A stretch of 30,550 bases of DNA from a virus. Shown in pieces: positions 20,694-23,862 of the stretch; the first letter of the stretch is position 1, and each line of letters begins with the position of its first letter. The notes below the pieces were generated by a model, which saw only the letters and a list, made by a program, of their open reading frames with translations, did not search any database and was not told the DNA's origin. The position numbers and the translations under genes are program-made. The stretch spans positions 1-30,550 of IMG/VR virus record IMGVR_UViG_3300042514_000185. One strand, given 5' to 3'.

Positions 20694-20700
20694 AGTTTAG

Positions 20701-20707
20701 TATTTAG
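20701..20707 (-). promoter_or_regulatory. Late promoter motif CTAAATA for gp14-gp15-Nudix
   Basis: On the minus strand CTAAATA ends 7 bases before the gp14 ATG (20693). It is the same motif found upstream of gp13, gp18 and gp19 and one base off the core of T4 TATAAATA. If transcription begins about 5-7 bases after the motif, the mRNA would have almost no leader. Confidence 0.55.
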
Positions 20708-20718
20708 CTAAGATTCAC

Positions 20719-20747
20719 TTGACAGTTAATTACAAAATACATATAAT
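20719..20747 (+). promoter_or_regulatory. Perfect-consensus sigma70 promoter
   Basis: TTGACA (20719-20724), a 17-base spacer and TATAAT (20742-20747) match the housekeeping consensus at all twelve positions with optimal spacing. The ATG at 20754 begins 7 bases after the -10 box, about where transcription should start. It lies back to back with the gp14 late motif, 11 bases away. Confidence 0.8.
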
Positions 20748-20753
20748 TACTAT

Positions 20754-21005
20754 ATGGATGAAATTTTAGAACGTTTGTCGGCCGCAGAAAAACAACTGCT
20801 TCTTGTCAAAAAGAAACGTAATCAGCGTGATCTTCAAAAAATGATCAGTAATATCGATAAAGTAATTACCGAAATTAGCAGAGAATCTGTAGAATGCAGA
20901 CGTCTTAAAAAAGAAACAACAAAATACAAGGATTTATTAGTTGAAGCTACTAAATTGTTAGACAACCTAGAGCATCAAATAATTTTTGCGATGCTGTTAG
21001 GTTGA
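20754..21005 (+). CDS. Small coiled-coil protein, 83 aa, unknown function
   Basis: The product (MDEILERLSAAEKQLLLVKK and onward) is almost all charged and aliphatic residues in heptad-like spacing, with no Gly/Pro until the end, predicting a long helix or coiled coil. It has 18 Lys/Arg-rich positions in the first half, so nucleic-acid or protein contact is possible. The ATG is at the expected start point of a perfect sigma70 promoter and has no Shine-Dalgarno, so translation is probably leaderless. The stop TGA lies inside the -35 box of the next promoter. Host-type promoters mark it as an early gene; the function is not recognised. Confidence 0.65.
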   Translation: MDEILERLSAAEKQLLLVKKKRNQRDLQKMISNIDKVITEISRESVECRRLKKETTKYKDLLVEATKLLDNLEHQIIFAMLLG

Positions 21006-21030
21006 CTTTTTTTAATTTAACCACTATACT
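21002..21030 (+). promoter_or_regulatory. Strong sigma70 promoter
   Basis: TTGACT (21002-21007), 17-base spacer, TATACT (21025-21030): ten of twelve consensus positions. The -35 box overlaps the stop of the upstream gene. The ATG at 21040 begins 10 bases after the -10 box. Confidence 0.75.
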
Positions 21031-21039
21031 ATTAACACT

Positions 21040-22185
21040 ATGGCAAAAATACAAACTACAATCAAACGACTTGTCCCACGCGGCGAAGATGCTAAATTTA
21101 TTGGCTCAGAACCCGAATGGCCTACACAACCTTCCGACGAAACTCGTGTTAGCACATTAACAAAAGCATTCAATTGGTATAATTATTCTTATGGCCGTAA
21201 AGAAGCTAGGGATATGATTATTCAATATTTTGAAATAAATCAAAAAGCTAAAGAAGCAAAGCTAATCCGAGGTATTTCAGATAACCGCGTTAAACCCACT
21301 ACAGGATGGATTTGTAGAATGTCAGTTATGGGATTAATTCTCACAGAAATTGAACAATCTGTACTAGATGATCACTTAACTGAATTATTGGCTAGCAAGC
21401 AAGAAGAACAAAAAGTTGCAGCTACCTCTGAAGAAACAGCTCAACAAAAGCTAACTATTCAAGATCATTTACGTGAAAAAGCAAGTGAATGTGCCGCTGA
21501 ACTTGAAGGCATGTATGATGATTTTATCCAAGCTGATGCCAAAATGTCAGCGAATTTCAAGCCTATTGCGCTAATTCGTGGCATGAATATTTCTACACAA
21601 ATGATTCCTAATATTACTGCTGTATGGAAGTTGCGACTAGCAGAACTTGAAGAAGTATTAGAGGGAAAAGATCCACAACTTGTAGAAGGCTTTAGCCATC
21701 TTACTAAACCTCAGTTGAAAAGCTGTGTGAAATTTTGTGAAACTGTGCTGGCAGACTGCCAATCTTACATTTCACTTAAGAAAGTAGAACGTAAACCCCG
21801 CGCTAAAAAGGCAGTTAGTCCTGAAAAAGTAGCGTTAAAGTTTAAATATCTTAAAGAATTTGTCGAACTTGGGCTTAAATCTTTGTCCCCTGTAAGTTTA
21901 GTAGGTGCTTCTGAAGCTTTCCTTTATGACACAACTAAACGTAAGCTAATTTATGTGGTAGCAGATACACATGCAGGTACATTTACTATTAAAGGTTCAT
22001 CATTGTTGGCATTTGATGCTCTAGCAACTGTACAAAAAACTCTACGCAAACCTAAAGAGCAGATTAAAGCTATTATGAGTGTGGGTAAACCTGCTGCTCG
22101 TAAGGCGTTTAAGGATATTAAATCTACTGAAATTAAATATACAGGGCGTAGCAATGACAACTTGGTTATCTTGAAGGCTTGGTAA
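21040..22185 (+). CDS. Conserved phage hypothetical protein, 381 aa
   Basis: The product starts MAKIQTTIKRLVPRGEDAKF. It has an alpha-helical, Lys/Glu-rich character with FNWYNYSYGRKEARDMIIQY near residues 45-64, a probable coiled segment around 125-160, a very basic linker at about 250-265 (ERKPRAKKAV) and a C-terminal beta/alpha part containing LIYVVADTHAGTFTIKGSS. I associate this pattern with T4-like phages of aquatic bacteria, where it is uncharacterised; I cannot assign a function. No signal peptide, membrane helix or catalytic signature was seen. It follows a strong sigma70 promoter with an almost absent 5' leader and no Shine-Dalgarno, which fits early expression although gp13 downstream is a late gene. 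Confidence 0.7.
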   Translation: MAKIQTTIKRLVPRGEDAKFIGSEPEWPTQPSDETRVSTLTKAFNWYNYSYGRKEARDMIIQYFEINQKAKEAKLIRGISDNRVKPTTGWICRMSVMGLILTEIEQSVLDDHLTELLASKQEEQKVAATSEETAQQKLTIQDHLREKASECAAELEGMYDDFIQADAKMSANFKPIALIRGMNISTQMIPNITAVWKLRLAELEEVLEGKDPQLVEGFSHLTKPQLKSCVKFCETVLADCQSYISLKKVERKPRAKKAVSPEKVALKFKYLKEFVELGLKSLSPVSLVGASEAFLYDTTKRKLIYVVADTHAGTFTIKGSSLLAFDALATVQKTLRKPKEQIKAIMSVGKPAARKAFKDIKSTEIKYTGRSNDNLVILKAW

Positions 22186-22190
22186 ATCTG

Positions 22191-22197
22191 CTAAATA
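22191..22197 (+). promoter_or_regulatory. Late promoter motif CTAAATA for gp13
   Basis: CTAAATA lies 18 bases before the gp13 ATG and overlaps the first base of the inverted repeat at 22197-22217. The expected late start site (about 5-8 bases downstream) would fall inside or just after the 5' arm of that repeat. Confidence 0.6.
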
Positions 22198-22217
22198 TAT
22201 GGACACGGAGTCCATAT
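22197..22217 (+). promoter_or_regulatory. Hairpin covering the gp13 ribosome-binding site and start
   Basis: ATATGGAC (22197-22204) and GTCCATAT (22210-22217) are perfect 8-base inverted repeats around the loop ACGGA. The Shine-Dalgarno GGAG (22207-22210) is in the loop and stem edge. The 3' arm contains the first two bases of the gp13 ATG (22216-22218). RNA made from upstream promoters can form the hairpin. RNA started at the late motif would lack most of the 5' arm. Confidence 0.65.
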
Positions 22218-22986
22218 GGCAGAGCAATCACAATCTACTTTAGAAACACTTAAACAAGATCTAATCGAATACGTTAGGCTTCAATTAGGCGATGATATCA
22301 TCGATATAGAGCTGGATGCTAGTCATTATGAGTCGGCATATCGCAACAGTATCGGAACTTATCGTCAACGAGCACAAAATGCCTATGAAGAAAGTTATAC
22401 GTTTATGGAACTGGTTACTAACGTAAACATCTATGATTTGCCAGACGAAGTTATACAAGTAAGACAGATTTTCCGTAGAACTTTTGGTGATTCATCCGGC
22501 CCGAATGCCAGCAATTTTGACCCATTTAGTCAAGCTTCGTTAAATGTATATTTGATGAACTTTAACGTATCTGGTGGGTTAGCTACATATGATTTTTACT
22601 CTCAATATATTGAGTTAGCTGGACGCATGTTTGGTGCGTATATGAATTATACTTGGAATCCAGTTACCAAAAAACTCCAATTAATACGCGATCCCAAGGG
22701 GTCGGGCGAGAATGTATTGTTATGGACTTATAACTTAAAACCTGAAGTAAATTTACTCAGTGATTATCAAATTCGCCAATGGATACGTAATTATATGTAC
22801 GCCAATTGTAAGATGATTATTGGCGACGCACGAGAAAAATTTGGTACTATTGCCGGCCCGCAAGGCGGAACCACACTAAATGGTGCTGCAATGAAGGCCG
22901 ATGCCAAAGAACTAATGGCACAATGTCTTAAAGACCTAACAGATTATGTAGATGGTTCGGCTCCGTTGACCTGGATTATAGGATGA
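22216..22986 (+). CDS. gp13: gp13-like neck (head completion) protein, 256 aa
   Basis: Matches the gp13 neck protein pattern of T4-like aquatic phages: LGDDIIDIELDASHYESAYRN, IYDLPDEVIQVRQIFRR, YIELAGRMFGAYMNYTWNPV, LLWTYNLKPE, MIIGDAREKFGTIAGPQGG, with a terminal LTWIIG. Length is close to the family norm, with no added domain, unlike gp14, gp15 and gp18 here. In T4, gp13 and gp14 bind the portal after DNA packaging and make the tail-binding platform. The start is ATG 22216 with GGAG 5 bases upstream, both inside a hairpin. gp13 is on the opposite strand from gp14 and gp15, unlike the collinear 13-14-15 order in T4. Confidence 0.85.
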   Translation: MAEQSQSTLETLKQDLIEYVRLQLGDDIIDIELDASHYESAYRNSIGTYRQRAQNAYEESYTFMELVTNVNIYDLPDEVIQVRQIFRRTFGDSSGPNASNFDPFSQASLNVYLMNFNVSGGLATYDFYSQYIELAGRMFGAYMNYTWNPVTKKLQLIRDPKGSGENVLLWTYNLKPEVNLLSDYQIRQWIRNYMYANCKMIIGDAREKFGTIAGPQGGTTLNGAAMKADAKELMAQCLKDLTDYVDGSAPLTWIIG

Positions 22987-23015: not shown

Positions 23016-23032
23016 TAACATAAATAATGTTA
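23016..23032 (+). promoter_or_regulatory. Inverted repeat with late-like motif at homing endonuclease start
   Basis: TAACAT (23016-23021) and ATGTTA (23027-23032) are inverted repeats with the loop AAATA. The 3' arm includes the A of the start codon at 23032. The sequence CATAAATA (23019-23026) is one base from the T4 late octamer. No good Shine-Dalgarno is present. The stem is short and AT-rich, so evidence is moderate. Confidence 0.4.
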
Positions 23033-23862
23033 TGACCTTAAGACAACAATTAATAGAAATAATAGATACTGATACAACCTACAAGAAACGTGCTGTTAAA
23101 TACCTATACCTACGACATCCTGATTTATGGAGCGAGGCATTAGAGTTAACATCTTTCTTGCCAGATACTGCTAAACCTAAGCAGAGAGTATGGCACATTT
23201 TAAATGATATTTGGGAAATACCCAAGTGTCCAGAAACAGGAAAGGAAGTCAACTGGTTTGATAATCGTTATCTCACATACGCATCTGTCAAAGCATCTAG
23301 AAAGATTGTAGCAAAAAAGTTAAGTGAGTCTACTAAAGGTACTGGCCATTGGCGCAATAAAGATCCTGATAAATCGAAAGAAGCTAACAAAAATTTTACT
23401 ACTGGGTTCACATCAGGTGATCATAAACCCTGGGAAGACCGCGATAGAGATCCAAAGGCGTATGCTGTAAAAGCAAAAGAAACCTGGCTTGAAAAATACG
23501 GAGTAGATAATCCCAGTAAACTTAAAGAAGTGAAAGAAAAAATCTACCAGAAAGCTGTAGATCGAGGTTGCACTCGTCGTGAAGAAAGATCAGATCGCCG
23601 GATCTATTATGAAGCAGTATGGCGTTTTACTGAAGAAAGTTGGAAGACACATTTTGATGAAATAAATCCTACGAGATTAAATCGTTCGCATAATGCCCTG
23701 GATCATATCTATTCAATACAACAGGGTTTTCGTGATTGCATACCACCATATATTATCGGACATTATACCAATCTGCGTGTTATTAGTCTAAGCGAAAATG
23801 GTATTAAGGGTATGCGATGTGATAAAACTCGAGAAGAACTTTTTGAAGACTTTTTTGCTTGA
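23032..23862 (+). CDS. Probable HNH-type homing endonuclease, 276 aa
   Basis: The C-terminal region carries the signature LDHIYSIQQGF (D224-H225), then TNLRVIS (N247) and N256 with K259, the layout of a phage HNH homing nuclease family in which D-H and N form the metal site; a final histidine is not obvious. Residues 155-171 (KYGVDNPSKLKEVKEKI) are a short DNA-contact-type motif common in these enzymes, and a CPETGKEVNW turn lies at 66-75. Such enzymes cut DNA lacking the gene and spread by recombination. It stands alone between gp13 and the exonuclease cassette, with no intron boundaries seen. The start is ATG 23032 by frame; the ribosome-binding site is weak. Confidence 0.75.
   Translation: MTLRQQLIEIIDTDTTYKKRAVKYLYLRHPDLWSEALELTSFLPDTAKPKQRVWHILNDIWEIPKCPETGKEVNWFDNRYLTYASVKASRKIVAKKLSESTKGTGHWRNKDPDKSKEANKNFTTGFTSGDHKPWEDRDRDPKAYAVKAKETWLEKYGVDNPSKLKEVKEKIYQKAVDRGCTRREERSDRRIYYEAVWRFTEESWKTHFDEINPTRLNRSHNALDHIYSIQQGFRDCIPPYIIGHYTNLRVISLSENGIKGMRCDKTREELFEDFFA

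Follow-up and report, generated by a model that had tools for sequence, protein, structure and literature searches.

The neck gene gp13 of a jumbo-phage relative is probably translated only late in infection, through a hairpin that would hide its start codon in long RNA from early promoters, and that RNA begun at the adjoining late promoter could no longer form. Both the covariation of the hairpin arms and the predicted opening energies argue that a masking hairpin in the long gp13 RNA is under selection, and a T4-like explanation for gp13 is well supported by sequence comparison. The window, i.e. the whole stretch of DNA analysed (30,550 nucleotides), is a 30.5-kb virus record, a fragment from a relative of jumbo myophages. 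Among named phages, the nearest matches to its gp13, with identities of about 34-43%, come from Agrobacterium phage Atu_ph07, Sinorhizobium phage Phosso, Xanthomonas phage XaC1 and the RaK2/GAP32/121Q group. IMG/VR holds hundreds of relatives, the best 80 of them at 79-100% identity. We gathered 201 gp13 loci, some of which are repeats of one contig, and compared 80 distinct leaders of relatives. The features of the region are collected in Table 1.

Table 1. Features around the start of gp13, with positions in the window.
Feature	Position	Strand	Basis and remarks
Sigma70-type promoter TTGACA-17-TATAAT	20719..20747	+	12/12; the ATG of the 83-aa ORF follows after 6 nt; a relative contig also has a homologous promoter
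83-aa ORF opening the putative early unit	20754..21005	+	ORF list
Sigma70-type promoter TTGACT-17-TATACT	21002..21030	+	10/12; directly before the 381-aa gene
381-aa gene, phrog_11903	21040..22185	+	ORF list, profile match; RNA would continue into gp13
Outer helix, 5' arm TCTGC	22187..22191	+	Fold; covariation in close relatives; partner 22219-22223
Late promoter box CTAAATA	22191..22197	+	Sequence, position, relatives; CTAAATA in Aeh1 (PMC1524935)
Hairpin, 5' arm ATATGGAC	22197..22204	+	Sequence, fold, arm pairing in relatives
Putative late start region (bases 4-8 counted from the box end)	22201..22205	+	22203 under the T4/Aeh1 rule (box end = -6)
Hairpin loop ACGGA, containing GGA of the Shine-Dalgarno	22205..22209	+	Sequence
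Shine-Dalgarno GGAG	22207..22210	+	Sequence
Hairpin, 3' arm GTCCATAT (last Shine-Dalgarno G, spacer, AT of ATG)	22210..22217	+	Sequence, fold, arm pairing
gp13-like neck gene / head-tail adaptor Ad2	22216..22986	+	256 aa
Outer helix, 3' arm GCAGA, inside gp13 codons 2-3	22219..22223	+	Fold; covariation

A hairpin encloses the gp13 start region

A first-pass annotation of this DNA had described an 8-bp perfect inverted repeat around ACGGA, with a 5' arm starting at the last base of the CTAAATA motif. Both points are borne out by the sequence, eight perfect pairs joining 22197-22204 to 22210-22217. It had also placed the Shine-Dalgarno and the start codon (ATG at 22216-22218) within the hairpin. 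A correction applies to the Shine-Dalgarno: its GGA lies in the loop, and the stem takes up only its final G, together with the spacer and AU of the start codon. The window hairpin encloses most of the Shine-Dalgarno rather than base-pairing it, and the mean unpaired probability of GGAG is 0.75. The same layout is usual across the window clade, where GGA generally occupies a 3-6-nt loop and the last G alone is paired. Since GGA is looped, inhibition would have to rest on the tight loop and on the paired spacer and AUG, not on a paired Shine-Dalgarno. T4-type masking is recognised by a Shine-Dalgarno and/or an AUG held in an RNA helix, and the predicted fold places AU of the gp13 AUG in one.

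The fold of positions 22171-22245 has a predicted energy of -21.0 kcal/mol, against -12.1 for shuffled sequences (sd 2.7; z = -3.3). A single sequence is nevertheless weak proof, because comparable perfect stems are present elsewhere in the window: we counted 11 (at least 8 bp, loop 3-8), several of them nested, for a shuffle mean of 4.9. A lone 8-bp stem is therefore not rare, and a chance origin of the hairpin was ruled out only through the relatives. A search of Rfam returned nothing at gathering threshold, and a single chance-level U7 match elsewhere.

Pairing is maintained by compensatory changes

In the window clade, TAAATA is found in nearly every gp13 leader, and most of these leaders then carry a stem around the Shine-Dalgarno, made of differing letters. 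Comparison of the leaders, which the first-pass annotation had suggested as a check, brought out the compensatory changes sought, pairing being retained in most of the 80 distinct leaders. Compensated arm pairs include TATGGAC/GTCCATA, TAAGGAC/GTCCTTA, TATGAAC/GTTCATA, AGGAAC/GTTCCT, AGGGAAC/GTTCCCT, GGGGAC/GTCCCC, AGAGAAC/GTTCTCT and AGCAA/TTGCT, among others, so that several steps of the stem show altered yet still paired letters. Pairing was scored by permuting arms between leaders rather than from automatic column alignments, because the register of the stem shifts with loop size. With this permutation, which ignores relatedness, arms paired with their own partner scored 5.45, against 3.80 with shuffled partners (sd 0.15; maximum 4.19 in 1000 permutations). 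Given the variety of compensated arms, a neutral origin of the stem is very unlikely.

An outer helix encloses the late box and extends to codons 2-3 of gp13 (TCTGC/GCAGA in the window). Its variants in close relatives include CTCGGC/GCCGAG, AAGTGC/GCACTT, ATTGC/GCAAT and AATGC/GCATT, and in the CTAAATA subgroup it scored 3.66 against 2.61 for permuted arms, none of 2000 permutations being as good.

Loss of the pairing in close relatives would have spoken against masking. Most of them keep the stem, but a single internal mismatch is present in each of four leaders (L003, L004, L005 and L019), and to judge from these a weakened stem is tolerated.

The late box and the expected start of the late RNA

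As a word, CTAAATA shows no excess in the window (8 occurrences versus 9.75 expected). Its identification as a late motif by the first-pass annotation is supported on other grounds, namely its position before ORFs, a published box and the presence of a suitable sigma factor in relatives. We measured the distance from TAAATA to the ATG over the window and four relative contigs (621 ORFs in all). Two peaks were found, at 4-7 nt (49 cases) and at 16-24 nt (46 cases); the motif was rare at 8-15 nt and almost absent at 0-3 nt. Control words of the same length were fewer and lacked this two-peak pattern. The published late box of Aeh1, a T4-like phage, is CTAAATA, beginning at -12, and the T4 late box TATAAATA spans -13 to -6 (PMC1524935). 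A gp55-like sigma gene was detected in three relatives, with E about 1e-7 (the window record being a 30.5-kb fragment). Taken together, these observations point to a T4-type late promoter directly upstream of gp13.

The distances also bear on where late RNA would begin. As the 0-3 nt distances are unused, RNA should start no earlier than base 5 past the box, and the 16-24 nt peak implies a start early enough for short leaders with a Shine-Dalgarno. The two peaks together would place the late start of gp13 inside the 5' arm, near 22203. We thus infer a start some 5-8 bases after the box, so that late RNA would lose the 5' arm.

The putative early unit upstream and probable read-through

The first-pass annotation had proposed sigma70 promoters at 20719 and 21002, and both stand, with 12/12 and 10/12 consensus matches, respectively. 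The 83-aa ORF behind the first of them had no match in Pfam or PHROGs. Of 67 relatives, 61 have a sigma70-type promoter before the 381-aa gene, and none has TAAATA there. Between the 381-aa gene and gp13, the + strand of the window shows no terminator-like site. The conserved promoter and the lack of a terminator-like site make it likely that early RNA reads through into gp13.

Predicted cost of opening the start region

The opening energy was defined as the cost of freeing the stretch from the Shine-Dalgarno to the AUG, and the late form as RNA with its 5' end 6 bases past the box. When the two transcript forms are folded, truncation at the expected late start is predicted to free the start region. 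The mean cost is 9.5 kcal/mol for read-through RNA and 2.9 for late-start RNA, and the window leader goes from 13.8 to 1.6 kcal/mol. For comparison genes with TAAATA 14-28 nt before the ATG, the respective values are 4.75 and 2.5 kcal/mol. Upon sliding the 5' end along the leader, the mean cost is 6.2 at base 3, drops to 3.3 at base 5 and stays at 2.9 from base 6 onward. This collapse just before the expected start indicates that the 5' arm begins shortly before that expected start and extends over it. The opening cost was below 6 kcal/mol in 12 of the 79 leaders scored.

Suggestive association with the upstream gene

We next compared leaders according to the gene that precedes gp13, counting stems of at least 5 bp and assigning upstream genes by tblastn. 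The hairpin is present in 56 of the 61 leaders where gp13 directly follows the 381-aa gene, and in 1 of the 7 where a radical-SAM gene (PF04055) lies between the two. Along the gp13 tree, 3-6 of 8 independent pairs show adjacency and hairpin shifting in the same direction, with no pair showing the reverse (median p 0.06), so that after tree correction the association is only suggestive. The hairpin is also retained where other genes precede gp13 (L027, L063, L074, L215 and L239). In Atu_ph07, Phosso, a Vibrio phage and L163, the gene upstream of gp13 lies on the opposite strand, and no comparable hairpin beside the late box was seen in these four leaders; a costly opening is predicted for the Phosso leader, through another fold.

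The radical-SAM gene between the 381-aa gene and gp13 is found in scattered relatives (L073, L018, L020, L021, L050, L062 and L071), with 7 changes on the gp13 tree, and several copies of this gene carry TAAATA or TAAGTA 4-5 nt before their start codon.

A different hairpin in the RaK2/GAP32-type clade

In the RaK2, GAP32, 121Q, Munch and XaC1 group, the upstream genes are co-directional and the gp13 hairpin differs from that of the window. Its stem pairs CCCC or CCTC, together with the first bases of the late box in most cases, with a GGGG or GAGG in the Shine-Dalgarno region. The Shine-Dalgarno itself is paired, with an unpaired probability of 0.00. The 5' arm, located either upstream of the box or within it, stops short of the expected late start. 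The predicted opening cost is 17.7 kcal/mol for the long form and 3.8 for the late form, and arm pairing scored 9.3 versus 7.1 upon permutation. The RaK2/GAP32-type hairpin looks built for the same job as that of the window.

A T-run 3' of the hairpin is confined to this clade. Many of its leaders have one (L134, L138, L140, L142, L156, L157 and relatives), and the combination resembles an intrinsic terminator in the read-through RNA; premature termination of early RNA could therefore add to masking.

Other promoters and leaders

TAAATA lies 4-7 nt before the ATG in 49 of the 621 genes, for instance at 20701-20707 (- strand) and 23021-23026 (+ strand) of the window and in many places of contigs L097-L131. 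If transcription begins 5-8 nt past the box, the corresponding late mRNAs would have almost no leader, or none. One such gene is a homing-endonuclease-like ORF directly 3' of gp13 (23032-23862), with TAAATA 5 nt before its ATG. Sigma70-type promoters fall into two classes, in which the -10 hexamer lies either 5-9 nt before the ATG, giving putative leaderless early RNA, or 22-30 nt before it, with a Shine-Dalgarno; these classes are seen at 20719-20756 and 21002-21042 of the window and in relatives. Positions 20694-20753 form a divergent control region, with a late box for the 450-aa virion gene on the - strand and, on the + strand, a sigma70 promoter of perfect match for the early unit.

Further leaders also carry stems near the box. 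In L103 (955-1670, - strand), a gene for a glycine-rich protein, behind a GIY-YIG-like homing endonuclease ORF, has TAAATA and a 9-11 bp hairpin over its Shine-Dalgarno, and is possibly a second masked late gene. A gene of 133-156 aa has a small stem of varying sequence (GGAC/GTCC, GGCC/GGCC) just past TAAATA, with the Shine-Dalgarno free (L099 near 3998, - strand; L107 near 12202, + strand; L112 near 7514, + strand; L121 near 16850, - strand). This small stem may be a 5'-end stabiliser.

The proposed switch and its alternatives

According to the late-only switch, RNA initiated from the sigma70 promoter of either the 83-aa or the 381-aa gene (around 20754 and 21040, respectively) would run into gp13 and fold into the 8-bp hairpin and the 5-bp outer helix. 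The Shine-Dalgarno would be caught in the 5-nt loop and the spacer and AUG start would be paired, so that ribosomes would seldom initiate at gp13. A gp55-type sigma would then activate CTAAATA, and RNA beginning about 5-7 bases past the box, within the 5' arm, could form just 2-3 of the eight pairs, which would leave the start site open and allow gp13 to be made.

Among the rivals, the strongest is translational coupling, in which ribosomes finishing the upstream gene would melt the 5' arm, and early read-through RNA would still yield some gp13. The upstream stop codon of the window lies 11 nt before the 5' arm (gene end 22185), and many relatives use the TAA of TAAATA as that stop codon, so that a ribosome completing the upstream gene may open the stem; a co-directional ORF precedes nearly all hairpin leaders. 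However, persistence of the hairpin behind other upstream genes argues against coupling as its main reason, the opening energy drops where late RNA is expected to start, and gp13, a virion gene, has a late box to itself. We consider coupling unlikely. A hairpin that stabilises the 5' end or presents the site to ribosomes would require late RNA to keep the whole stem and display GGA in the loop. GGA is exposed in this way in the window clade, and the stem begins right after the box, but the box ends at -6 in both T4 and Aeh1 (PMC1524935), the near absence of TAAATA 0-3 nt before the ATG, as opposed to 4-7 nt, puts the start at base 5 or later, and the RaK2-type 5' arm, being upstream of or inside the box, cannot be part of the late RNA. 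This makes such a role quite improbable.

We give still less credence to an RNA processing site, where cleavage by a RegB-like enzyme at the looped GGAG, or by RNase III, would inactivate or mature the long RNA. By its annotation, T4 RegB cuts mRNAs at GGAG, and the gp13 GGAG sits at the hairpin loop; yet no convincing regB relative was found in the contigs of five relatives, and GGAA replaces GGAG in some leaders. The least plausible reading is a DNA operator, a protein bound to the dyad blocking the late promoter. The dyad does overlap the late box, like the I-TevI operator of T4 (PMC2988022), but its arms vary widely while pairing is retained, which suits RNA pairing and not a fixed binding site. 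Masking of the gp13 start in read-through RNA is the reading that we retain.

It is possible, and we propose it tentatively, that two divergent jumbo-phage clades each evolved their own neck-gene hairpin, along with promoters elsewhere (late, and some early) that start RNA at or beside the AUG. If so, promoter-coupled starts, whether through a hairpin or a leaderless RNA, would tie translation to the promoter used on a genome-wide scale. The approach offers a sequence-only means of placing late transcription starts in uncultured phages, and the other type of hairpin occurs in the cultured phages RaK2, GAP32, 121Q and Munch, which makes it testable in laboratory hosts.

Comparison with known systems

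Among open-licence full texts, we found no report of masking at gp13 or in this phage group. The excerpts of the study of CBB and GAP32 (PMC5259590) mention ATAAATA before structural genes, the same box type as in the window, and a gp55-like sigma in CBB; no gp13 hairpin or start-site masking is described in them.

T4 e and I-TevI are established cases of start masking in read-through RNA, and soc, 49 and others are listed alongside (PMC3014915, PMC2988022). In T4 e, structure lowers lysozyme synthesis from the long RNA about 100-fold (PMC3014915). As proposed for gp13, e is a late gene behind an early unit, its start region is hidden in a stem of the long RNA, and its late RNA lacks the 5' arm (PMC3014915). 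Unlike gp13, where GGA is looped and a single box is present, e has its Shine-Dalgarno AGGAGGT within the stem, and two late boxes. The gp13 hairpin of the RaK2 clade is nearer to this layout than that of the window. Beyond the box, no sequence similarity was seen between T4 e and the window gp13 leader. The ribosome site is likewise masked by RNA structure in T4 I-TevI, segB, soc and 49 and in Aeh1 mobE, and in I-TevI masking is relieved by an internal late promoter (PMC2988022). The gp13 leader fits T4-type masking by its proposed mechanism and is not a homolog of those leaders.

The T4 cases of read-through masking that appear in reviews are few (e, soc, 49, I-TevI and some homing endonucleases). 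I-TevI, segB, mobE, soc and 49 are homing endonuclease, lysis or other genes, whereas gp13 encodes a neck protein and is found in two divergent jumbo-phage clades. In gp13, the same logic would operate on a virion assembly gene, with compensatory changes preserving the pairing in dozens of environmental jumbo phages.
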